The notes under the pieces are model-generated. The model was given only the letters and a program-made list of their open reading frames with translations. It ran no database searches and had not been told where the DNA came from. From Halovivax gelatinilyticus (GTDB lineage: Archaea; Halobacteriota; Halobacteria; Halobacteriales; Natrialbaceae), in NCBI RefSeq assembly GCF_024300625.1, contig NZ_CP101322.1:2865992-2929991 (forward strand): 64,000 nt of DNA, written 5' to 3'. The stretch's first letter is position 1. Each line of letters begins with the position of its first letter. Shown here in pieces: positions 40,185 to 62,892 of the stretch. A program made the translations under genes and the position numbers.

Positions 40185-42080
40185 ATGCCACGACGGCCCA
40201 TTCGACCGTTGAATCGGCGTGCCTTGATGAAGACCTCCAGTGTTGCTGGTGTTGCAGCATTGGCCGGCTGTGTTGGTGGTGGAGATGACGATGACGGCGA
40301 GGATCCAGGTGCCGATCTTCCAGACGTTGAACTGTACGATGCCGACGGAGAGGAACGTATCGAACCAGCGATCATTTACGACTCGGGGAGTCAGACCTCC
40401 GAGGACATCGCGGCGGCAATCGCCTCCGACCTCGAACTGATCGGAGTCGACCTGCAGATGGAGCCCCGTCCAGAGGTGCTCGGTGAGGACTTCTTCTCGG
40501 AGCCGCTGCCTGACGAGGATCCAGACGACTTCGAGTGGGGTCCAGTCGGCCGAAACGCTGGACCGCCGGACCGAACGCAAACGGTGTTCGATTGGGACAT
40601 CCTCATCGGAATTGGGGCAAATTCCTATCCACGAACACCTGACAATACGGACGTGTTCTGGTTGCCGGATGCAGCAGTGAACGCGTACGGGTACGTGCCG
40701 GAAGCAGACATCCCCGGCATGTACGACGACTTCGGCGACGCGGAAGACGACGCAGAGCGCCAGGAAATCCTCAACAACATCATGGGGGCGCTGACGGAGG
40801 AACTCCCAGCGAACTTCCTCTCGCAGGGACTCGATTTCTTCGGGTTCCGTGACGACATCCACACGAGCGACGACTTCAACCTCTACGGCGCGGAAATGAC
40901 CTCGATCGAGCGCTACCGCGGCGACCAGTCGGTCGGTGGCGACTACGTCCGCCTCGAGGCGACGCCGTTCTCGCAGGGCTTCCTCCCCGAACAGGACGAC
41001 AACAACTCGGCGATGCGAACGGCGCTGATGTGTGACGGCGCGTACGCCGTCGGCACCGACGACGAGATCATCCCGCTTCACATCGATATCGAAGACTCCG
41101 GCGATTCGCAGGTCTGGGTCTGTACGCTTCGTGACAACCTCATGTACGGCGAGGACGCTGACGGTAACTCCTACGGCCAGATGACGGCCGAAGACTGGGT
41201 CTTCCAGCTCGAGAACCTTCACGCGGTGGGTTACGACGACCCCGAAGACGTCGATTACTGGGATTCGTCCGTGCCACCGAGCGAAGCCACGGCCTCCTAC
41301 GCAGTCGTCGAAAACGTAGAGCAGACTGGCGAACTCGAGTTCCAGCTCGAACTCTTCGAACCAGATCCGTTCTTCCCGTTCCGACCGGTCATCTGGGGCG
41401 AGGACGTTCTGCCGATGGCGCTGTTCGAGCAGTACGCACCGGACCCGGATGCGCTACGTGAATCCGATGAAGTCACCGAATTCACCTGGACCGGCAACCT
41501 CGGTCCGTACCAGTTCGACGACCGCGTTGCCGGTGCCGCCGGTTCGTTCACGCTCACGCGCAACGACGACTACTACATGCGCGAGCACACGGAAGAGAGC
41601 AACGTCCAGGTTATGGACGAGGCGTTCGCGGATGCGCCGTACTTCGATCTCTACCAGTTCGACAACGAGTCAGAGCAGTCGACCCGGGTCGAGCGATTCC
41701 GTGCCGGTGAAGGTGACCGAATGGGTCTGCCGACCGACGTCATCCAGGAATTCGAAGAGGCGGTCGACGACGTTCGCGTCGAAGACCAGCAGACGCCGTA
41801 CATCAACTTCATGTTCTACAACCAGCGCGCGAACGGTTCCGAACTCACGCGAGAGCGTGACGGCCGCGAAGCCATCGCCCGCGTCGTCGACAAGGAGACG
41901 ATTACCCAGGACATCCAGCAGGGATACGCGGAACCAGCCGTTACCTTCCAGCCGACCTGGTCGAACTGGTACGACGAGTCCGCGGTGAACGTCTACGGCG
42001 TCGACATCACCGACGAGGACATCATCGCAGCCCGAGAACTCCTCGAGAACAACGACAACTTCACGCTCGAGGAAGTCTAG
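40185..42080 (+). CDS. dppA: Peptide-type ABC transporter substrate-binding lipoprotein, apparently circularly permuted
   Basis: A 631-residue family 5 solute-binding protein anchored outside the membrane: Tat-like NRRALMK, then the lipobox LAGC at Cys29 and an Asp-rich linker. Residues 48-245 (PAIIYDSGSQTSEDIAAAIA, then LELIGVDLQMEP and ERQEILNNIMGALTEELPAN) match what is normally the C-terminal third of the family. Residues 250-631 match the usual N-terminal and middle part (VWVCTLRDNLMYG, MTAEDWVFQLENL, LGPYQFDDR) and the chain stops at AARELLENNDNF, where the C-terminal third would normally begin. All parts are present, in rotated order. It is the first gene of an A-B-C-D-F operon. Confidence 0.88.
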   Translation: MPRRPIRPLNRRALMKTSSVAGVAALAGCVGGGDDDDGEDPGADLPDVELYDADGEERIEPAIIYDSGSQTSEDIAAAIASDLELIGVDLQMEPRPEVLGEDFFSEPLPDEDPDDFEWGPVGRNAGPPDRTQTVFDWDILIGIGANSYPRTPDNTDVFWLPDAAVNAYGYVPEADIPGMYDDFGDAEDDAERQEILNNIMGALTEELPANFLSQGLDFFGFRDDIHTSDDFNLYGAEMTSIERYRGDQSVGGDYVRLEATPFSQGFLPEQDDNNSAMRTALMCDGAYAVGTDDEIIPLHIDIEDSGDSQVWVCTLRDNLMYGEDADGNSYGQMTAEDWVFQLENLHAVGYDDPEDVDYWDSSVPPSEATASYAVVENVEQTGELEFQLELFEPDPFFPFRPVIWGEDVLPMALFEQYAPDPDALRESDEVTEFTWTGNLGPYQFDDRVAGAAGSFTLTRNDDYYMREHTEESNVQVMDEAFADAPYFDLYQFDNESEQSTRVERFRAGEGDRMGLPTDVIQEFEEAVDDVRVEDQQTPYINFMFYNQRANGSELTRERDGREAIARVVDKETITQDIQQGYAEPAVTFQPTWSNWYDESAVNVYGVDITDEDIIAARELLENNDNFTLEEV

Positions 42081-42135: not shown

Positions 42136-43200
42136 ATGAAGTGGTATATCTTCCGCCGGATGCTCTGGGCCGGATTTGCCTCCCTCATCATTCTCACGAT
42201 CACGTTCGTGTTGATGGACCAGACGCCGAATCAGCGGATTATGGAAGTTCAGATGCAGGCGATGATGGATGGGGTGGATCTCGAAACAGCCGAGCAAGCC
42301 GCTGAAGAACGATACGGACTTGCCGCGCCGTTTCACGAACGCTATTACATGTTCATGACCAACATTTTCCAGGGTAACTGGGGTTGGTCATTAGAGTACA
42401 ACCAGCCGGTCATCGACGTGATGAAGGTGGCGATTCCGTTCTCGATGATGTACAGCGTTCCCGCTGTTATCCTCTCGACGATCCTCGGAACGATCATCGG
42501 CCTCTATTCGGCTGCCAACCAGTATACGACCAAAGATTACATCGCGACGTTCGTCGCGTTCTTCGGTCTCAGCATCCCGAACTTCTGGTTCGCGGTTATC
42601 ACGCTGGTCGTGTTCGGCACCTGGCTCGGGTGGGTAGACATCGGATTCAACAATTATTACGCCATGTCCGCAGAGGGCGGGTTCACATGGCTCGAATCGA
42701 CCGATGACAATCATCGAGCCTTCATCGGTCAGGAGTTCGAGGGTGACCGTTACGTCGGCATTTTGAGTCCGGGCAATCTCAAACAGCTGATTCTGCCGAT
42801 GTTCGTTCTCATGACGACCTCGATCGCGACGGTCATGCGGTACGCGAGAGCAGAAGCGCTCGAGTACATGGATGCCGATTTCGTCAAGACGGCGAAGGCG
42901 AAGGGCGTGAGCTCGCGGACGATCGTCGCAAAGCACGTCTTCCGACCGGCCTCGATCCCGCTCATGACGATCTTCGTCGGACGGATTCTCGGACTCGTTA
43001 TGGCCGGATCCTACCTCATCGAGGTCGTCTTCGGTATTCCGGGAATCGGACTCGCATCGTTCGAGGCGATCATGCGCCAGGACACGGACCTCGTCGCGAT
43101 CACGATACTGATTCCGACCTTCCTGGCGATCGTCGGAAACCTCGTTGAGGACATTATGTATGCAATCCTCGATCCACGAATCGACTACAGTGATAAATAA
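42136..43200 (+). CDS. dppB: Peptide-type ABC transporter permease (DppB-like)
   Basis: A 354-residue inner-membrane permease with about six helices. MKWYIFRRMLWAGFASLIIL is the typical N-terminal helix, and the EAA cytoplasmic loop is RAEALEYMDADFVKTAKAKGVS. SYLIEVVFGIPGIGLASFEAI and the short end LDPRIDY are family-typical. An outside loop of about 50 residues near 175-225 is longer than in bacterial DppB. It starts 55 bp after the binding protein and its TAA shares one base with the ATG of the next gene. Confidence 0.9.
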   Translation: MKWYIFRRMLWAGFASLIILTITFVLMDQTPNQRIMEVQMQAMMDGVDLETAEQAAEERYGLAAPFHERYYMFMTNIFQGNWGWSLEYNQPVIDVMKVAIPFSMMYSVPAVILSTILGTIIGLYSAANQYTTKDYIATFVAFFGLSIPNFWFAVITLVVFGTWLGWVDIGFNNYYAMSAEGGFTWLESTDDNHRAFIGQEFEGDRYVGILSPGNLKQLILPMFVLMTTSIATVMRYARAEALEYMDADFVKTAKAKGVSSRTIVAKHVFRPASIPLMTIFVGRILGLVMAGSYLIEVVFGIPGIGLASFEAIMRQDTDLVAITILIPTFLAIVGNLVEDIMYAILDPRIDYSDK

Positions 43201-44429
43201 TGAGTGACGATACCGACACGATGGCGGGCGACGGTGGCTCTGACGCGCCAACGGACACGTTCGAGTCCGTCGAGTGGGACGACATTGACATCACGAACGA
43301 AGGGCGAACGTGGGGTGAGAAACTCTGGATCGTAATCGTGAGCGTCTGGACACTCGGGGTCCTCTTCGAAATCTACTCACGATTCGTTGCGGGAACGGGC
43401 CAGGCGGTGTATCCGTTTATCGGTGAAATTGCATCAGAAGACTATCTCTGGGCGTTCGCACTCGCCTGTCTCGTCTTCTACGGCATTCGGCCGCTCTATA
43501 AGAGCCCGCGGATGACCATGCACTACTGGAAGCAGTTCAGGAAAAACAAGGCCGCAGTCATCAGCGGTCTTTTCCTGATCGTGATATTCACGATCGGCGT
43601 CGTCGGTTCGCGGGTACTTCCTGACGCCTCACGTAATCCTGGCTACGAGCGACTGCCGCCGTTCTGGATGTCGATCGAAGACTACGTCACCGGTAACAAC
43701 TGTCCCGGGGGGACGACGGTCGAAGACGGCGTCACGATGTGTCACGGGAGCATGGACCATCCGCTCGGGACCACCTCGTCGGGTGAAGACATCCTACTGC
43801 TCAGCATCCACGGGATGGAAGTGAGTATGATGGTCGGGATTACGGCGACGTTCATCAGCATCGCCATCGCGACGCTCGTCGGGTTGACCGCGGCGTACTA
43901 TGGCGGACTTCTCGACGAGATTCTCATGCGCTACGTCGACATCCAGATGACGTTCCCCACGTTCTTCCTGTACCTGCTGCTGGCGTACACCATCGGTGGC
44001 AGTCTGTTCATCCTCATCATGATCTTCGGTCTCTTCGGCTGGGGCGCGACGGCGCGTATCATCAGGGCCGAGGCGTTACAGCGACGCGAAGAACCGTATA
44101 TGATGGCGGCAAAGAGCAGTGGCGCGACGAGTCGCTGGTCGATCCGGCGCCACCTCCTGCCGAACACGACCAACAGCGTCATCACGGCGGCGACGCTCGC
44201 GATTCCTGGTATCATCCTCACCGAAGCAGCGATCTCGTTCCTCGGGTTGGCCGACGCGTCGATTCCATCGTGGGGGCGAGTGATCGCGAACGGACAGGAC
44301 TACCTCCGGAGTGCGTGGTGGATTTCCACCTTCCCCGGATTCTTCCTGTTCTTCACCATCCTCGCGTTCAACTTCATCGGTGATGCACTCAGAGACGCGC
44401 TCGATCCACGTCACGGAGGGTCCGACTAA
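43200..44429 (+). CDS. dppC: Peptide-type ABC transporter permease (DppC-like), N-terminally extended
   Basis: A 409-residue permease. The usual DppC core begins around residue 115 (RKNKAAVISGLFLIVIFTIGVVG). Its EAA loop is RIIRAEALQRREEPYMMAAKSSGATS, and it closes with FIGDALRDALDPRHGG. About 110 extra residues precede it, with two additional hydrophobic segments (KLWIVIVSVWTLGVLFEIY and DYLWAFALACLVFYGIRPLY). The gene overlaps both neighbours by one base (TAATG junctions). It pairs with DppB to form the channel. Confidence 0.9.
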   Translation: MSDDTDTMAGDGGSDAPTDTFESVEWDDIDITNEGRTWGEKLWIVIVSVWTLGVLFEIYSRFVAGTGQAVYPFIGEIASEDYLWAFALACLVFYGIRPLYKSPRMTMHYWKQFRKNKAAVISGLFLIVIFTIGVVGSRVLPDASRNPGYERLPPFWMSIEDYVTGNNCPGGTTVEDGVTMCHGSMDHPLGTTSSGEDILLLSIHGMEVSMMVGITATFISIAIATLVGLTAAYYGGLLDEILMRYVDIQMTFPTFFLYLLLAYTIGGSLFILIMIFGLFGWGATARIIRAEALQRREEPYMMAAKSSGATSRWSIRRHLLPNTTNSVITAATLAIPGIILTEAAISFLGLADASIPSWGRVIANGQDYLRSAWWISTFPGFFLFFTILAFNFIGDALRDALDPRHGGSD

Positions 44430-45520
44430 TGAGTACCGATCACAGCACACGGCCGGACGAACAGGTGTCGACGACGCACCGAGCTAGCGAACCGCTTCTC
44501 GAAGTAACGGATCTACACACCTACTTCGACACCGATGCAGGGACGGTCAAAGCCGTCGACGGCGTCTCATTGACCGTAAACCGCGGTGAAACGGTCGCGG
44601 TCGTCGGAGAGAGTGGGTCCGGAAAGACCGTCACGAGCGAATCGATTACGCGGTTGTTCAAGAGTCCTCCAGGGTACATCCCAGAAGGCTCGATCAAGGT
44701 GAACGGAAACGAAGTGACCACCATGAACGATGACGAACTGCAGGTCCTTCGTGGTGGCCAGGTGAGTCACATCTTCCAGAACCCGCAGGGTGCGTTGAAT
44801 CCGGTCTACTCGATCGGCTGGCAGATACGCGAAGCGCTCACGCTGCATCAGGATCTCTCGAAAGAGCAAGCGAACGAACGAGCCGTTGAACTGCTCACAC
44901 AGGTCGGCATTCCAGAGGCGAGTTCGCGGCTCGAAGATTACCCACACCAGCTTTCGGGTGGGATGAAACAGCGCGTCATTATCGCGATTGCGCTCGCCTG
45001 CGAGCCCGACCTGCTGATCGCAGACGAGCCGACGACGGCGCTCGACGTGACGATCCAGGCCCAGATTCTCAAATTACTCAACAAACTCCAGGACGAGTTC
45101 GACATGGGCGTCCTGTTTATCACCCACGACCTCGGTGTCGTCGCCGAGGTCGCCGATCGGGTTGTCGTGATGTACGCCGGCAAGGTGATGGAAACGGGTC
45201 CGGTGATGGAAATCTTCGAGAAACCGTCCCATCCGTACACGCGTGCACTTCTGGAATGTCTTCCCGGGAAGGGTGACCTCGGTGGCATCCCGGGCGATCT
45301 ACCGGATCCGCTCGATCCGCCAGACGGTTGTCGGTTTGCCGACCGCTGTCCACACACCATCGACGAGTGTCGGTACGGCGATCAGCCACCGATGCACTCG
45401 ATCGACGACCACCGCGATCACGACGTTTCGTGTGTACACTTCAGATCTGACATGGACTCCAGTACGGTACTGACACAGCAGACGACTGAAATGGTCGAAC
45501 AGGAAGGTGGTTTCGAATGA
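44429..45520 (+). CDS. dppD: Peptide ABC transporter ATP-binding protein (DppD-like)
   Basis: A 363-residue ATPase. Walker A is GESGSGKT, the Q-loop [11 protein letters not shown], the ABC signature LSGGMKQRV, Walker [13 protein letters not shown] and the switch ITHDLG. The oligopeptide-type C-terminal region holds four Cys (CRFADRC...DECR...SCVHF) with normal spacing. In related transporters this region binds a [4Fe-4S] cluster. It partners DppF of the same operon. It overlaps dppC by one base and dppF by four. Confidence 0.92.
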
Positions 45521-46872
45521 GCCGTGCTGGCGATCCGTTGCTCAAGGTCACCGACCTGAAAAAGCACTACCCGATCACGAAGGGCTTTATGAACAAAGAG
45601 ATCGGCCGTGCGCGGGCCGTCGACGGGATCAGCTTCGAGATCGAGCGCGGCGAGACCTTCGGGATCGTCGGCGAGTCGGGCTGTGGTAAGTCGACCGCTG
45701 CGACGTCGATGATCCGTCTCGAAGAACCGACCAGCGGCGAGGTGCACTTCAACGGTGAGAACATCTTAGACTACGACCCCAAGCAACTTCGCATGTTCCG
45801 TCGTGAAGTCCAGATGATCTTCCAGGATCCCGATTCCAGTTTCGATCCCCGGATGAGTATCGGTGACTCCGTCGCGGAACCGTTAATCGTTCAGGGGATG
45901 ACCGATCGCGAACGCCGTCGGGCAATCGTCGGTGACTTACTCGAACGGGTCGGTCTGTCCGCCTCGGACATGGAGCGATATCCCCACGAATTCTCCGGTG
46001 GCCAGAAACAGCGTATCGGTCTCGCCCGTGCGCTCTCGGTCAATCCGGAGTTCATCGTCGCCGACGAACCGGTCTCCGCGCTCGACGTCTCCGTTCAATC
46101 CGAGATCCTCCGTCTATTGGATGAGTTCCAGCGAAACTTCGGGCTGACTATGTTGATCATCAGTCACAACCTCGGCGTCGTTCGCGAGGTCTGTGACCGC
46201 GTCGCCGTGATGTATCTCGGAGAGTTCGTCGAAGTTGCGCCGACCGAAGAGCTGTTTACGAATCCAAAGCATCCCTACACCCAAGCGTTGCTCTCTGCGA
46301 TCCCGACTCCCGACCCCAGAGAGCGAGGTATGGGCCAGGACCTGAAAGGCGACGTACCGGATCCGTCTGCACCGCCGGCGGGTTGTCGGTTCCACACTCG
46401 CTGTCCGAAGGTCATCCCGCCCGAGGGGATCAACCTCCCACAGTCTGAGTGGCGAAACCTCTTACACTTCAGAAAGAAAGTACAAGGGAGCGGTATCGAC
46501 CTCGATAGTATCGTCAAGGTAAACGTATTGGATGACGAATCGATCGACGATCCGACGTCGGTGACGGCCGACGATATCGACGCCGACACGCTATCGAACT
46601 GGATACGACGGGAGTACGAGTTACCACAGCAGTTGACCGATACGACCGCGGAGACGATCCTCTCACACGCGCTCGAATCGATCGTCGATGACGACGAGGA
46701 TGCGGCCGTGAGCATCCTAAACGAGAACTTTACGACGCCGTGTGAAGAACAAAAACCAGCTCTCGACACCGTCGAACCGGGTCGACAGTCCGCCTGTCTG
46801 TTGGAGAACCCAACCGAACCACTCGCGGCCAGCGTGGGCGAGCAAGCCCAGCACCGTCAATCGACCGATTAA
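45517..46872 (+). CDS. dppF: Peptide ABC transporter ATP-binding protein (DppF-like) with C-terminal insertion
   Basis: A 451-residue ATPase: Walker [10 protein letters not shown]-loop [11 protein letters not shown], signature FSGGQKQRI, Walker [13 protein letters not shown], switch ISHNLG. The C-terminal Cys motif begins with CRFHTRC (Cys290 and Cys296), but the next two Cys come only at 409 and 427. About 105 acidic, probably helical residues are inserted between them ([37 protein letters not shown]). DppF of the second operon has a similar insertion at the same place. It ends the first operon. Confidence 0.9.
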
Positions 46873-54792: not shown

Positions 54793-56133
54793 CTAGTCGA
54801 ATCGTGTGTTGATTACCGTCTCGGGATCTCGATACTCCGAATCGTGTCGGTGACAGTAACTTTGGTGGTTCGTCCCGCCGACGTCGTAAAACTCGGGTTC
54901 GGTCGCGTCGCAGACGCTCCCGAAGACGTCGGCATACGCCTCGAGCGCCGCGGCTTCGCCCCGTTCGGTTACCAGTTCTGCGATCTCGTCGACGTGTGTT
55001 TGGATCTCGTCTGGAACGGCGTACTCTCCGAAGAGTTCCTCGACCGTTTCGTCCATCGTTCCGAACCGCGTTTCTTTGCCAAAGCGTTCGCGAATGCGTT
55101 CTCTAACTGACCGATTCGCTCGCATCCGCTCGCGGAGTACCTCCCTGAACTGAATCAACTGCGTCCAGAGGTCCGTATCCATATTCGGGAATCGTTCCGG
55201 CCTGATGCTGGCCGGACAGCGAGTGCTGAACGGACAGCCGTCCGGTGGATAGCGCGGATTTGGTGGGGTGCCGTGAAGCGTCACTCGTTCACGGTTCGCC
55301 GTGGGATCCGGTTCCGGGATAGCTGATAAGAGTGCGTGCGTGTAGGGATTTTGCGGATCGGTGAACAACTCTTCTGTCGGTCCGATCTCCATGATGTTCC
55401 CGAGATACATGACGGCGACGCGATCGCAGATGTGGCGAACGACCGATAGGTCGTGGGCGATAAAGAGGTACGTCAACCCGAACTCGTCCTGGAGGTCTTC
55501 GAGGAGGTTGATGATCTCCGCCTGCACGGAGACGTCCAGCGCTGAGACGGGTTCGTCGAGGACGATGAAATCGGGTTCGAGCGCGAGCGTCCGCGCGATA
55601 CCGATTCGCTGGCGCTGACCGCCTGAGAACTGGTGGGGATACCGGAAATAGTGTTCGCGTTGCAATCCGACCGTGGCGAGTAAATCTTTGACCTTCTGGC
55701 GTCGTTCCCGAGGTGTCCCGATCTTGTGCACGTCGAGGGGTTCTCGAACAATTTCTCCGATCGTCATCCGGTCGTTGAGACTCGATTCCGGGTCCTGGAA
55801 CACCATCTGGGCGTTCTTTCGCCACTCGTGGAGCTCGTCGCGGCTGAGCGTCGTTACGTTACGTCCGTCGAACCGTATCTCGCCGGCCGTCGCATCCTCG
55901 AGCTGGATCAACGTGCGTCCGAGCGTCGTTTTCCCACAGCCTGATTCTCCGACCAGCCCGAGCGTTTCGCCTCGGTGTATCTCGAACGTCACGCCGTCGA
56001 CGGCTTTGACCGGACGTCCGCCGAAGATTCCACTGCTCTCGTAGTGGGTTTTCAATCCGTCTACCTGGATCATCGCTTCTGAGACGTGTTCGTCCGTTCC
56101 TTCCGTTCCCGTCGCAAGTGCATCCTGGCTCAT
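54793..56133 (-). CDS. dppF: Peptide ABC transporter ATP-binding protein (DppF-like) with C-terminal insertion
   Basis: A 446-residue ATPase: Walker [10 protein letters not shown]-loop [11 protein letters not shown], signature FSGGQRQRI, Walker [13 protein letters not shown], switch IAHDLS. The C-terminal Cys motif starts with CPFSTRC (Cys300 and Cys306), but the partners come only at 408 and 427. About 100 charged helical residues lie between ([39 protein letters not shown]). The insertion site equals that in the first operon, although the inserted sequences differ. It overlaps dppD by 4 bp. Confidence 0.9.
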
Positions 56134-57491
56134 TCGTCCTCACCTCCGTCGGTGTCCGTACGTCCACGCTGCTGGTGTAGCTCGACCGCTTCGACCGTCG
56201 ACATCGATTCGGGATACAACAGACAGGCGGCCGTGTGATCTTCGGATTCGCCGTCGACCGGCACCGAGACGGGGTGAACGACCGAACACTCGTCGAAGGA
56301 TTCCGAACAGCGCGGTTCGAACCGACAGTAGGTCGCCGGCTCGTTCGGCGTCGGGACGTTCCCGTCGATCGTCTCTAACCGCTTACCGGTTTGATTGCCC
56401 GGAATCGAGCGCAGTAGGCCGTGGGTGTACGGATGTTTCGGCTCCTGAAAGAGCGATTCTACGCCGGCCGATTCGACGACTTCTCCGGCGTACATGACGT
56501 TTACTCGATCGCTGATCTCTGCGATAACGCCCATGTCGTGTGTGATAAACATAATACCGAGATCCCGTTCGTCCTGTATCTCTGCGAGCAGATCGAGAAT
56601 CTGAGCCTGTATCGTCACGTCCAGGGCCGTCGTCGGCTCGTCACAAATCAGGACCTCTGGTTCGCAGGCGAGCGCCATCGCGATCACCGCTCGTTGTCGC
56701 ATCCCTCCGGAGAACTGGTGGGGATATTCGGTCACCCGTCGACGGGCGTCCGGAATGCCGACCGCTTCGAGAAGCGCCGCCGCCTCTCGGGTTGCGTCTT
56801 CACCTTTCAATCCCTGGTGCAAACGAAGCGCCTCCTTGATCTGGTTTCCGACGGTGTAGACCGGATTGAGGCTCGTCAGCGGGTCCTGAAACACCATCGC
56901 GATTCGTCCGCCCCGCATGAGGCGCTGGGATTCTCCTGAGAGATTCGACAGCTCGACGAATCCGGCCGTTATCCCGTCTGGCGTCTCAGGATCTCCCTCG
57001 GTAACGAATACGAAGTCGGCCGGATCGACGCCCTCGAACGGCTCCGTATAGCCGGCCGCGATGACGTCCTCTACGGGAACGTCGTCCGGCGAATCGAAGC
57101 CGAGATCGCCCGGCGTTACGTCGACGGAGGGGTGATCGAACACCGATTCTGGATCGTAGGAGTTTCGGTGGGCCGCGACGTCGACGACTCGCTTCGGGAA
57201 CCTGGCGGCGTACTCTCGGACCGTCTCGAGTTCGGTGTATCGGATGGAGCTACCTGCCATGATACGGCCGGGCGATTCGACGAGGCCCATGATCGATCGC
57301 GCGGTGACGCTCTTCCCCGACCCCGATTCTCCAACGATTCCGACGGTTTCGCCTGGTCGAATATCGAAGGAGATGCCGTCGACGGCGCGAATCGTCTCCT
57401 TTTCGGTGAAAAACGCCGTCTGCAGGTTCTTCACCGAGAGGATCGGTTCAGTGTTCGTCTCCGCTTTCTCGATTGTAGATTCCATTGACAT
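56130..57491 (-). CDS. dppD: Peptide ABC transporter ATP-binding protein (DppD-like) with internal insertion
   Basis: A 453-residue ATPase. Walker A GESGSGKS lies at residues 54-61, and the Q-loop [10 protein letters not shown] only at 201-210. About 95 extra residues lie between (roughly 85-185), with an acidic sequence such as [20 protein letters not shown]. After it the usual order resumes: signature [10 protein letters not shown], Walker [13 protein letters not shown], switch ITHDMG. The C-terminal Cys motif (CRFEPRC...DECS...ACLL) is normally spaced, unlike that of its DppF partner. It overlaps dppC by one base. Confidence 0.9.
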
Positions 57492-59287
57492 TATCCACCA
57501 CCTCCGGCCGCGCCTGCGCCTTCACTCGGCACGTCGGCCTCCGGATCGATCGCGTCTCGAACCCCGTCACCGAGCGCGTTGAAGCCGGTGACCACGATGA
57601 CGATCATGATTCCAGAGACCGTCGAGATGTGCCAGGACTGCGTCGAGACGTACTGGCGTCCGCTGTTGATGAGTCGACCCCACTCTGGCGTCGGTTCGTT
57701 GATACCGAGACCCAGGAACGAAAGCGCCGCCGTGGCGATAATGACGCCGCCGAGGATCAGCGACGCGTAGATCATGATGTAGCCGGCGATATATGGGGCC
57801 ATGTGTTTTCGCATGGTTGCGAGCGGCGTTTGACCGTAGCTCTTCGCCGCGTCGACCCACTCTTCTTCTGCAACCTGCAGGGATGGACCACGGATGGATC
57901 GCCAGAGCCCTGGCCAGTAGACGAACGCGAAGATGAGTGCAAGCAGTAACCCGCCGTCCATCGGCTCCGCGAGGAAGTGATTTCCTTCCTGGAAGATCAC
58001 CGAGAGCATCATCACCAGCAAGAACGCCGGAATTGAGATGATCGTATCGCTGGCGATCACGGTGAGGACGTCGGCGATTCCCTTGTAGTAGGCCGTGATC
58101 AACGATAGCAACACCGCGATCAACCCGCCGAGCCCGACTGCGATCAATCCGATCACCAGCGACGTTTGGGCTCCATACGCGAGGTGTGTCATCATGTTTT
58201 GCCCGACGTGGGTCGTTCCAAGCGGCGACCATCGGTCGTAATCGTCGTAACTCCACAGGCCGACTTTGTCAACGTTCCCTGATTGGCTGTTTACGTTTGC
58301 CGTTCCGTGGGCAATCGTGTTTATTTCTCCCGTATCTTCGTCGAGATACTCGAACTCATGTTCGTACGTCGAGTAGATGTTGGCCTCAGCCGTGACCGGA
58401 CTGACCGCCGGGGCCCAGAGTGCGAGGATGAGGAACATGGTGACGACGATCAGACCGAACAATCCCCAGTAGTGGTTTCGGAACCGACGGATCGTATCGT
58501 CGCGCGGGGTCCACTCCGCTGCGCGATAATGCGTACGAAAGACGTTGTAGCCCTTCCACATCCAGGCGATGAGCGCGAACGCGTAGGCGTATACGACGAT
58601 GACGCGAATCCCCCAGGCCCACGCTGGCGATAATCCGAGGAACGTTCCGTCCCATCCACCGTCGGGCGTTCGATGTCCATCGTTGGAGATGACGTCTCGA
58701 TCGGTGAGCGATGGGAGCGACGAGAGCGAATCGAGGACGCTCGATATGAAGCTAATTTCGTTAGAGACAATCGTTCCGATCGGTGTGAACACGAGGACGA
58801 ACGCGACTGCTCCGAGCATCCCGGTGACAACGAGTCGATCCAGCAGGACGCTCATTCGACGCGTTACGTCCAGTTCGAATCGCTCTGCGACGCGCCACGG
58901 GAGGAGGATTCCGGTGAGGAAAATCGATGCGACGAACAGTATTGCGAGCGAGATCAGATCGCTGGCGAGGTGCCCCGCAATTTCGCCGAGGGCGTCGCCA
59001 GTCGATCCGAGACCGAGGACGGAGAACGCATTGGCGATCCCGCTTCCGACGTTTCCACCGATCCACCCCGGGATGGTCGCGACTCCGGAAACGACGAACG
59101 ACAGCATGTGGCCGAGGCGTTTTATGCCTCCCATGAACGTCGAGAATTCGAGCAAGACGAAGACGGCCAGTCCGGCCAGCCAGAGGAGGGCCGGTCGCGG
59201 GTTATCGGCGACTCGTTCACGGAAGAGGGTCTCTTCTTCTGCGCCCGGTTCACCTGCATCCGCCGTGTTGTTTGCTATATCACTCAT
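57491..59287 (-). CDS. dppC: Peptide ABC transporter permease (DppC-like) with long membrane extension
   Basis: A 598-residue permease, about twice the usual DppC length. The core starts around residue 270 (NHYWGLFGLIVVTMFLILALWAP). Its EAA loop is QVAEEEWVDAAKSYGQTP, and FNALGDGVRDAIDPE closes it. The first 265 residues carry about five extra hydrophobic segments (PALLWLAGLAVFVLLEF, LISLAILFVASIFLTGIL, LVVTGMLGAVAFVLVFTPIG and AWGIRVIVVYAYAFALIAW among them) plus a polar outside stretch. The C-terminus is Gly/Ala-rich. It overlaps dppB by 4 bp and dppD by one base. Confidence 0.9.
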   Translation of the reverse strand: MSDIANNTADAGEPGAEEETLFRERVADNPRPALLWLAGLAVFVLLEFSTFMGGIKRLGHMLSFVVSGVATIPGWIGGNVGSGIANAFSVLGLGSTGDALGEIAGHLASDLISLAILFVASIFLTGILLPWRVAERFELDVTRRMSVLLDRLVVTGMLGAVAFVLVFTPIGTIVSNEISFISSVLDSLSSLPSLTDRDVISNDGHRTPDGGWDGTFLGLSPAWAWGIRVIVVYAYAFALIAWMWKGYNVFRTHYRAAEWTPRDDTIRRFRNHYWGLFGLIVVTMFLILALWAPAVSPVTAEANIYSTYEHEFEYLDEDTGEINTIAHGTANVNSQSGNVDKVGLWSYDDYDRWSPLGTTHVGQNMMTHLAYGAQTSLVIGLIAVGLGGLIAVLLSLITAYYKGIADVLTVIASDTIISIPAFLLVMMLSVIFQEGNHFLAEPMDGGLLLALIFAFVYWPGLWRSIRGPSLQVAEEEWVDAAKSYGQTPLATMRKHMAPYIAGYIMIYASLILGGVIIATAALSFLGLGINEPTPEWGRLINSGRQYVSTQSWHISTVSGIMIVIVVTGFNALGDGVRDAIDPEADVPSEGAGAAGGGG

Positions 59288-60348
59288 CGGTCGTACCCCA
59301 CGCGTGGATCGATGATCGTGTAGAGAAAGTCCTGTAAGATATTGAGAAAGATTATCACGACCGTAAAGAAGAACAACAGCGCACCGGCAAGTGGCAGGTC
59401 TCCCTGGGTCATCGCCCTGAAGAAGATATTACCGAGGCCGTTGATGTTGAAGATGTATTCGATGATGACGGAACCGCCGATCAGGATGAACGCCTCACTC
59501 GAGATGATCGGAACGAGCGGGATGAGCGCGTTTCTGAATACGTGTTTCCAGACGATGACTCGACTCTTCAGTCCCTTCGCACGGGCGGTATCGACGTAAT
59601 TAGAGTTTATATTCTCCAGGACCGCCGTTCGACCGATACGTGCTTCAGCGGCCATTGAAGCGGATCCAAGGACGAGTGCTGGAGGGAGGATGAACTTTAT
59701 GTCGACTGCCAGTGCTCCCCAATCGATCGTCATCGGCGTCGGTATGACGCCGAATATCTCCGTCCAACCCGTCTCGTAGAAGTCGAGACTCGGCGTTCCG
59801 GTAATACTCCGTAACTCCGGGCCGAACGTGTACCAGTCGAATCCGAGCCACCCACCGCCGTGGGTCCGTCGCAGGACGGCGAGGATCATGATCGCGAGCC
59901 AGAAGTTCGGCATCGACTGCCAGAGAATCGCGCTGATCGTCGCGAAGTAATCGCCCTTCGTGTTCGGGTTGAGGCCGGCGTAGAATCCGAGCGGAATCCC
60001 GATAAAGAGCGGAAGCAAGATCGCCCAGAACCCGAGCCAGAGGGTCGGCGGTCCGGAGTTCATGATGATCGTCGTCACGTCACGCTCCGACTGAACGACC
60101 CACGACTGGCCGAGGTCGAGTGTGAGGAAATTCCACACGAAATCGAGATACTGTTCCCAGAGTGGATCGTAGAGGCCCAATCGCTCTCGCATTCGTTCTG
60201 CATCGGCCCCGCTCGCTTCGGGCCCGAGTCTCGCGGCTACGGGATCGATCGGCCCCATCCGAAGCATAATGAAGATGAACGTCATTACGAGGAACAGGAC
60301 CGGGATCGAGAGTAATAGCCGCTTGAAGAAGTATCCCCAGCGGCTCAT
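59284..60348 (-). CDS. dppB: Peptide-type ABC transporter permease (DppB-like)
   Basis: A 354-residue permease, equal in length to DppB of the first operon. MSRWGYFFKRLLLSIPVLFLV starts it, and the EAA loop is RTAVLENINSNYVDTARAKGLK. It continues IIEYIFNINGLGNIFFRAM and ends with IIDPRVGYDR. An external loop of about 50 residues (around 165-215) is present. It overlaps dppC by 4 bp. The distance to the binding-protein gene upstream is 353 bp, much longer than in the other operon. Confidence 0.9.
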   Translation of the reverse strand: MSRWGYFFKRLLLSIPVLFLVMTFIFIMLRMGPIDPVAARLGPEASGADAERMRERLGLYDPLWEQYLDFVWNFLTLDLGQSWVVQSERDVTTIIMNSGPPTLWLGFWAILLPLFIGIPLGFYAGLNPNTKGDYFATISAILWQSMPNFWLAIMILAVLRRTHGGGWLGFDWYTFGPELRSITGTPSLDFYETGWTEIFGVIPTPMTIDWGALAVDIKFILPPALVLGSASMAAEARIGRTAVLENINSNYVDTARAKGLKSRVIVWKHVFRNALIPLVPIISSEAFILIGGSVIIEYIFNINGLGNIFFRAMTQGDLPLAGALLFFFTVVIIFLNILQDFLYTIIDPRVGYDR

Positions 60349-60701: not shown

Positions 60702-62579
60702 TTATGCTTCTTCTTCGAGTTCTTCCTGCCAGTCGAGGTAGTAGCCGTTCGTGTCCGTCGGCATGCGGGACGTGTCCGTGTTCTTCGGTTCGAATCCGAA
60801 GTGTCCGTACGCCGGGTCCGGCCAGCTCCAGATCCAGCCGAGCGAGTACATTTCGAGGTCACCGTCCTCACCGCGCTCCTGGAGCGTGTTGAACTGCGTT
60901 TCCTCGGTCGACATCTCGACGCCGAGGCCGGATAGCTTCTCCCGGATGTTCGAGGCCATGTCCTGGAAGAGCTGGCTCTCGTAGGTGGTGCAGTTCATCT
61001 CGAACGGATCGTCGTCGGAGTATCCGGCGTCTTCGAGGACTTCACGTGCACCGTCGCGGTCCGTCTCGTTGACACCGTACGGCCAGGCGTCGAGCCACGC
61101 TTCGTAGCCCTCGGGGCCAGTCGGCCAGATACCGGACGGCGTGAAGCTGAACGCCTCGAATCCGCGACCGTCCATGAACTCTTGGACCAGTTCCTCGTGG
61201 TCGGTCACGTACGCGACGGCCTGGCGGACCGGACGCGGGACGTGGCGCGCGTTGAACGCGAAGTAGTACGTACTCATCTCGGTGATGCCGAGATAGTTGA
61301 CTTCCTCGCCGTTTTCGACCGGTCCGTACGTACCGGATTCGCGTCCGCGCTCGTCCGGTTCGGCGTCGATGAGACTTGGGTCGTAGTGTGCCTGCGGAAC
61401 GCCGATGATGTCCGCGTTGTACTCCATCGAGTACGTCCAGATTGCGTCGTCGTCTTCGATGATCTCCCAGTGAACGGACTCGAGGATCGGCGCACCGTCG
61501 TGGTAGTTGTCGAAGGCGGTGAGCCGGACGTCTTCGTCGACGTTGAAGTAGTCGTATTCGAACGGTCCGGTCCCGTTCGCCATCTCCGTCGCGAACTCCT
61601 GGTGGGTGACTTCGCCGTCGTAGTCCGGAAGGTCGTCGACGAGTCCTTCGGGGACGATACCGAATCCGCCGTAGGAGATGATGTCGAGGACACCCGGGTT
61701 CGGCTCACGGATCGTGAACTCGATGGTGTAGTCGTCGACGACTTCGATCTCCATACCGTCCTCAGTGGGGCGCGAGCCGGGAATGCCCTCGTCCTCGTCC
61801 GCCGGTTCGTACGCGATACCGAGACCGGCGGGCATGTCGAGAAGGAAGCTCGCACGCTCGCTGAAGTCGGATTCGCCGAGGCGGCGAAGCGAGTACTTCA
61901 CGTCGTCGGCGGTGAGTTCTCGGCCGTCGTGGAACTCGACTCCCTCCTTCAGGTAGAACGTCCAGGTGAGGCCGTCCTCGGTGGAATCGTATCCCTCGAC
62001 GAGTTTGTCTTCGAGTTCGGCGACCCCGTTCGGGTAGTGAGTCAGCGTCTCGTAAATCTGTGCGATGACGACGCTGGAGGCGGTGTCGGTCGACATGATC
62101 GGGTCGAGTTCGGAGAACGTCGAGTTGATCATGTTGAGTTCGGTGTCGCCTTCGACGTCGGTCTCGTGGTGTTGCTGGTGGTGTCCACCGAGCGCACCGA
62201 TCTTCGGCACGTCGACGTAATCGTACCAGAAGCGTTCGCCCATGCCGTGATAGAGCGGCATCAGGATCATGTCGTCTCTGACGGCCTCTTCTATCTCGAC
62301 GTACGCCTCGTTACGGAGGTCTACGGCGTCAGCTCCTGGGTTGTTGATGATTCGTTCCCAGGCGCGCTGTGCCTTGTCGGCGTGCGATCCGGTCTCGTCG
62401 TCGCCACCGTTTCCGCCATCTCCGTCGTCGCCGTCGTCAGCACCGTCGTCGGCGTCATCGTCGTCGCCACCGAAGAGGGCCGAACAACCAGCCAACCCCA
62501 CTGACGCACTGCCGCCGAGGAGGGCGAGCATCTTCCGTCGTGAACTGTCCACATCTTGCCGATTCGCGGTATCGGGCAT
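60702..62579 (-). CDS. dppA: Peptide-type ABC transporter substrate-binding lipoprotein, apparently circularly permuted
   Basis: A 625-residue family 5 solute-binding protein: SRRKMLALLGGSASVGLAGC is the Tat lipoprotein signal (Cys32), followed by a linker of Asp and Gly to about residue 63. Residues 66-135 (ADKAQRAWERIINNP, YVEIEEAVRDDMILMPLYHG, FWYDYVDVPKIGAL) match the extreme C-terminal end of the usual family. From about 145 the normal N-terminal part begins (NMINSTFSELDPIMSTDTAS, LTWTFYLKEGVEFHDGRELTADDV). The protein stops at YYLDWQEELEEEA, exactly where the displaced segment would continue. The start at 62579 gives the best signal peptide. Confidence 0.88.
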   Translation of the reverse strand: MPDTANRQDVDSSRRKMLALLGGSASVGLAGCSALFGGDDDDADDGADDGDDGDGGNGGDDETGSHADKAQRAWERIINNPGADAVDLRNEAYVEIEEAVRDDMILMPLYHGMGERFWYDYVDVPKIGALGGHHQQHHETDVEGDTELNMINSTFSELDPIMSTDTASSVVIAQIYETLTHYPNGVAELEDKLVEGYDSTEDGLTWTFYLKEGVEFHDGRELTADDVKYSLRRLGESDFSERASFLLDMPAGLGIAYEPADEDEGIPGSRPTEDGMEIEVVDDYTIEFTIREPNPGVLDIISYGGFGIVPEGLVDDLPDYDGEVTHQEFATEMANGTGPFEYDYFNVDEDVRLTAFDNYHDGAPILESVHWEIIEDDDAIWTYSMEYNADIIGVPQAHYDPSLIDAEPDERGRESGTYGPVENGEEVNYLGITEMSTYYFAFNARHVPRPVRQAVAYVTDHEELVQEFMDGRGFEAFSFTPSGIWPTGPEGYEAWLDAWPYGVNETDRDGAREVLEDAGYSDDDPFEMNCTTYESQLFQDMASNIREKLSGLGVEMSTEETQFNTLQERGEDGDLEMYSLGWIWSWPDPAYGHFGFEPKNTDTSRMPTDTNGYYLDWQEELEEEA

Positions 62580-62892
62580 GGAGAGTCTTTGACAAGGGAA
62601 TCGTAAATATCTACCGAAGCGAAACCTAAATATCACATTATCGTGACTGTGTTGTCCACCGCTACTGGTAATATCGTACTAGAGGTCCGTTTTATCCGAA
62701 GAATCTCGTTCCAGATTCGTATTCCATACTGTCGATGTCCGTAAATCCAACCGGTTCCACTCGCTGGGTTGGCAAACACCACGTGCGGTGACCTCTCACT
62801 TCAGGGGGCTCCTCGAATGAATCCCATCGAGACGCGGTCGTTGATCGCGTGGAACCACGAGATATTAATCGATCCACCCGGTAGGGTGAACT
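62580..62892. promoter_or_regulatory. Divergent promoter region, dppA (left) and thiolase (right)
   Basis: These 313 bases contain no gene. On the minus strand ATATTTAC (62603-62610) is centred about 27 bp before the dppA start. On the plus strand TATTAAT (62863-62869) is centred about 27 bp before the thiolase ATG. Both predict leaderless transcripts. A second T/A-rich element lies at 62625-62640. The middle region shows no further structure that I recognise. Confidence 0.6.

Follow-up and report, generated by a model that had tools for sequence, protein, structure and literature searches.

Introduction

Reports of natural circular permutation mostly present it as rare and as having happened once. 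The closest described case among ABC transporter binding proteins is Tp0684 (TpMglB-2) of Treponema pallidum, a circularly permuted glucose-binding lipoprotein of solved structure, for which its authors proposed a 'Type Ic' subclass (PMC4990184). Other natural circular permutants include the cpRAS GTPases (PMC2430557), and the generally accepted model, permutation by duplication, is reviewed in PMC2096629. A search of the openly licensed literature gave Tp0684 as the sole natural precedent among ABC binding proteins and no account of permuted family 5 members.

The protein described here (the query) comes from a window of 64,000 nt of Halovivax gelatinilyticus (GCF_024300625.1, contig NZ_CP101322.1, positions 2,865,992-2,929,991, forward strand). 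Its family is already known and its chain order is the new feature. AppA, CtaP, DppA, OppA and the nickel-binding relatives (PF00496) are homologous to the query over almost its full length once the order is restored, and they share with it the operon type (two permeases and two ATPases) and a lipoprotein signal; they differ from it in that the ancestral C-terminal ~180-200 residues of the query precede the remainder of the chain. Like the query, Tp0684 is a natural circular permutant of an ABC binding protein and a membrane-tethered lipoprotein, with permuted relatives that form a family. Unlike the query, whose sequence and fold matches are of the family 5 type, it is a Type I/cluster B sugar-binding protein of a different family, and a single permuted topology has been described for it, whereas family 5 has several breakpoints among close homologues. 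The cpRAS GTPases and other natural permutants represent the same kind of event and share the proposed duplication route, and differ in fold and function.

Results

The query gene and its operon

The query and the genes that follow it are arranged as listed here.

40185..42080, + strand: gene for the circularly permuted family 5 substrate-binding lipoprotein (query), 631 aa
40185..40271, + strand: signal peptide, Tat-type lipoprotein with lipobox, from the sequence and the lipobox pattern
40329..40868, + strand: displaced C-terminal segment, now N-terminal (residues 49-228; profile positions 394-571)
40869..40913, + strand: new junction or linker, ancestral C-terminus to ancestral N-terminus (residues 229-243)
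40914..42053, + strand: N-terminal plus middle portion of the ancestral chain (residues 244-623; profile positions 28-382; Pfam match 303-622 to 11-275)
42054..42077, + strand: final eight residues (DNFTLEEV), forming the new C-terminus where a loop of the ancestral chain was opened
42136..43200, + strand: permease 1, with homologues at the equivalent position of both permuted and ordinary loci
43200..44429, + strand: permease 2, an ORF with homologues at the compared loci
44429..45520, + strand: ATPase 1, an ORF with homologues at the compared loci
45517..46872, + strand: ATPase 2, an ORF with homologues at the compared loci

The first-pass annotation had described the ORF at 40185-42080, a lipobox at Cys29 and a closing segment moved ahead of the N-terminal part, and sequence and profiles show this to be correct in detail; the chain also stops just after AARELLENNDNF, as had been stated. 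An RR motif and an AGC29 lipobox are present as sequence patterns, with the Cys29 codon at 40269-40271, and the Pfam TAT_signal match is weak and under its cut-off. At the named loci, the layout of a binding protein, two permeases and two ATPases is common to permuted and ordinary genes; permease and ATPase homologues were not found at two of the named loci compared.

Exchanged order of the two segments

Pfam SBP_bac_5 (PF00496) recognizes the query above its gathering score, at 111 bits against a cut-off of 32.4, by aligning residues 303-622 with profile positions 11-275, and the N-terminal segment alone matches positions 288-349 weakly (E 0.009). The profile alignment proposed in the first-pass annotation thus yields two matches with exchanged profile coordinates. 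The main profile, of 589 positions and built from 18 ordinary haloarchaeal homologues, resolves the same order more fully, as mature residues 21-200 match positions 394-571 (113.6 bits) and mature residues 216-595 match positions 28-382 (318.6 bits), in reversed order and with about 12 profile positions missing at the break. The two segments do not overlap and together cover the parent. Rotating the query by ~200-208 residues gives a single alignment to positions 31-570 of 589 at 435.7 bits, and at the other rotations tried most alignments split in two and all score lower. A collinear alignment of the query in its native order was sought with the profile and not found. Because the chain departs from the canonical profile order, the query is a variant and not an ordinary SBP_bac_5 member.

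In ordinary homologues (e.g., G009, G029 and G010), the counterpart of query residues 271-623 comes first and that of 49-230 follows directly in the same frame; G041 and G052 likewise have ~271-623 first and ~49-230 directly downstream in one open frame, with E-values for the displaced part down to 1e-26 among the ordinary homologues. Chance resemblance is excluded by the presence of both parts in normal order and in one frame in these proteins. The circular permutation first read from the letters is borne out by the two reversed profile matches, the order restored on rotation and the close homologues in ordinary order, and at the level of sequence the query is confirmed as a circularly permuted family 5 substrate-binding protein of the AppA/DppA type.

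The gene very probably encodes a working AppA/DppA-like (SBP_bac_5) lipoprotein whose chain is circularly permuted, likely by in-place tandem duplication and fusion. The weak Pfam score of the displaced segment on its own (E 0.009) would suit an ordinary binding protein carrying an additional N-terminal domain with a chance resemblance to the C-terminal segment, a reading that retains practically no probability: the displaced segment aligns along its length with the family-specific profile, scoring 113.6 bits in the query and 199 bits in L020, a normal C-terminal segment is absent from the C-terminus, and the main profile finds no second copy of the displaced segment elsewhere in the window. 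A chimera, joining the C-terminal part of one binding protein to the N-terminal part of a different paralogue, is made possible by the 13 family 5 genes of the genome, between which recombination could occur, and is nevertheless very improbable. In trees built from either half alone, the query falls into one and the same nine-row clade, with like agreement for the Haloferax clade and L179, and both halves match inside one gene in ordinary homologues.

Conservation of the permuted order

Ordinary homologues are 32-45% identical to the query in the main part, and 48 ordinary sequences entered the tree set; named examples come from Natrialba, Natronorubrum, Halomarina, Halobellus and Haloarcula. 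Permuted homologues at 71, 68, 66, 56, 44 and 41 down to ~30% identity form single alignments across the new junction and include proteins from Natribaculum breve (complete genome), a Halorientalis MAG, Natronosalvus hydrolyticus, Haloterrigena salina, Halegenticoccus and several Haloferax species. Since several independent genomes, one of them complete and named, encode the protein in this permuted order, an assembly or frameshift artefact is excluded. Within the permuted group, dN/dS is 0.11-0.36, indicating purifying selection.

Position of the break

The break in the query group lies in the loop between the AR..LL helix and the strand following 'GPDGxQV'. Ordinary homologues read ARxxL...YxYDGDxLVGPDGEQVTL at this place; typical permuted members stop near LL...DYxYE, and beyond the signal and linker their chain starts at LVGPDGEQVxL. 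The chain has been opened with little loss, and the junction of the former C- and N-termini contains 0-16 additional residues.

Structure prediction with AlphaFold2 gave a pLDDT of 39.8 and a pTM of 0.27 for the query with 12 sequences, and 62.6, a moderate confidence, for an ordinary homologue with 16 sequences. The latter model, which aligns with AppA over 535 columns, and with AppA/DppA almost end to end, at a global TM-score of only ~0.5, served solely to locate breaks in loops; the break falls between helix 356-366 and strand 387-394, in a locally well predicted part. Printed alignments of permuted proteins to solved chains have the pieces in exchanged order. For CtaP (5isu), the permuted-group profile matches as 271-581 to 59-334, followed by 36-74 to 341-379 and 117-194 to 394-472, both of these later pieces being weak alone.

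A second permutant in the window

The window holds another permuted family 5 protein, with its own transport genes.

60702..62636, - strand: second family 5 binding lipoprotein, separately permuted (644 aa if counted from the GTG; translation may begin at a later ATG)
62151..62396, - strand: its displaced C-terminal segment, now N-terminal (profile positions 504-587 of its ordinary homologues)
54793-60348, following 60702-62636 (- strand): two permeases and two ATPases of the second binding protein

This protein is broken at a different loop from the query, in the region following NGYYLDW. Against a profile of 11 ordinary homologues it aligns at positions 504-587 and then 32-504, and ordinary homologues in the genomes G014, G016, G013, G052, G042 and G010 match its mature residues ~110-590 first and ~34-110 after. 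The loci compared for this protein comprise nine permuted and 18 ordinary ones, a few of which represent one gene more than once.

Recurrence of the permutation

The first-pass annotation had treated the query as a single case. It is instead one of many, with several changes of state and three loop regions among the breakpoints of family 5 permutants. In an 88-sequence tree built on restored order, the query-type breakpoint needs three changes and the second breakpoint one. The latter lies ~30 positions earlier and belongs to the haloarchaeal genus g33, whose permutants (L169-L178 and L180) end at WSEFYPGDE and start at FGVDDLYG, several of them joined directly, without additional residues. 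Trees of either half by itself likewise require three changes on starred branches. A single event for all query-type permutants was rejected in the AU test (p = 2e-52 with 29 rows, 0.0015 without L179), for which the group was named after the tree had been seen and which long branches could distort. A broad tree of 65 sequences needs seven changes among ordinary and four permuted types, these event counts being estimates from quick trees in which changes may include reversals.

L179 (G315) stands alone as a query-type permutant among nearest relatives that are either ordinary or broken at the other point, and it likely represents a separate, fairly recent event. The ordinary protein L165 stands beside the query group without firm support.

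Distribution in haloarchaea and beyond

Five of the 13 family 5 genes in the H. gelatinilyticus genome are permuted, including three that lie outside the window.

G000:C1:2714127-2718515 (2.714-2.718 Mb): permuted pair L011 and L012
G000:C1:989248-990741 (0.99 Mb): permuted L010 (identical to L014), followed by a permease gene

Between L011 and L012 lies an ORF that is similar to PAP2-type membrane proteins. Matches of the L011 type were found in 90 of 100 relatives, a count that takes in more distant family members; the full-length relatives among them span the new junction, hence are permuted, and are widespread in haloarchaea. In 13 haloarchaeal genomes, which by count have 72 family 5 genes, the C-terminal part of PF00496 gives 13 separate matches, every one of them upstream of the main match. 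In 27 of these genes, counted by hand, the main match ends by profile position 288, as expected for that breakpoint region and not proof for each gene.

The permutants are also not confined to haloarchaea or to lipoproteins. L195 (G570:C2:102500-106500) is a permuted archaeal protein from a genome outside the class; its C-terminus carries ~57 extra residues. L010-type relatives occur in Alphaproteobacteria, in Nitratireductor and Ketogulonicigenium (L211 and L212), where profile positions 289-364 and 294-366, respectively, lie ahead of 2-285 and 2-284, and permease genes are found downstream. Most of the haloarchaeal permutants looked at have a Tat-type lipobox; the Nitratireductor protein, judged by eye, has a secretory signal without a lipobox and appears soluble.

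Discussion

The permuted order would be explained by an in-place tandem duplication and in-frame fusion of the gene, followed by loss or trimming of the outer parts, such that the 5′ end with its promoter, signal peptide and lipobox was retained. The ancestral termini would thereby have become connected by a short linker, with the new termini placed in the AR..LL/'GPDGxQV' loop. No fused or duplicated intermediate was seen among the sequences examined. Homology, purifying selection and conservation of the operon suggest that the fold has been kept and the lipid anchor relocated. The two-lobed clamp is predicted still to form and to close on an oligopeptide-like solute, and the protein is predicted to dock on the pair of permeases from the adjacent genes; as sequence, operon and constraint are kept, both ligand closure and permease docking most likely proceed as usual. 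The lipid-bearing N-terminus would now be attached at the opened loop and not at its usual place.

What favored the permuted chains can be approached from their distribution. An adaptive relocation of the lipid anchor, altering how the tethered protein meets the permease, is consistent with the Tat-type lipobox of most haloarchaeal cases looked at, and tethering has been suggested as a possible reason by the authors of the Tp0684 study (PMC4990184). Such an adaptation seems rather unlikely as the cause, as permuted family 5 proteins also occur in Alphaproteobacteria, with a Nitratireductor member that by eye has no lipobox, and one operon type is served by both ordinary and permuted lipoproteins. 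In its strict form, with lipid anchoring as the sole cause, the proposal is not supported, given the soluble-type signal of that alphaproteobacterial permutant. The repeated origins suggest either selection or a high tolerance of permutation, and the balance tips slightly towards a near-neutral process in which several loops tolerate opening, the products of duplication and deletion are often functional, and drift carries them to fixation. The use of several loops, junctions with little or no extra sequence, the unchanged operon and the scattered distribution on the trees all point in this direction, although near-neutrality leaves the high frequency of permutants in haloarchaea unexplained.

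Seen across the sequences compared, family 5 proteins probably permute repeatedly in nature, with six or more events in three loop regions that may involve a third of the haloarchaeal paralogues as well as Alphaproteobacteria. If so, family 5 would be an unusually permutation-prone natural family and would provide a natural experiment on chain order and membrane-anchor position in a transport receptor. Because permutation recurs in a single abundant family of transport proteins, whose close ordinary relatives occupy operons of the same type, its causes and consequences become directly testable by comparison, the consequences concerned being folding, Tat export, lipid-anchor position and permease docking. 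Permutation can also explain why genes known only as 'ABC transporter substrate-binding protein' give partial or split Pfam matches and misaligned trees; the alphaproteobacterial permutants carry no annotation beyond this one.
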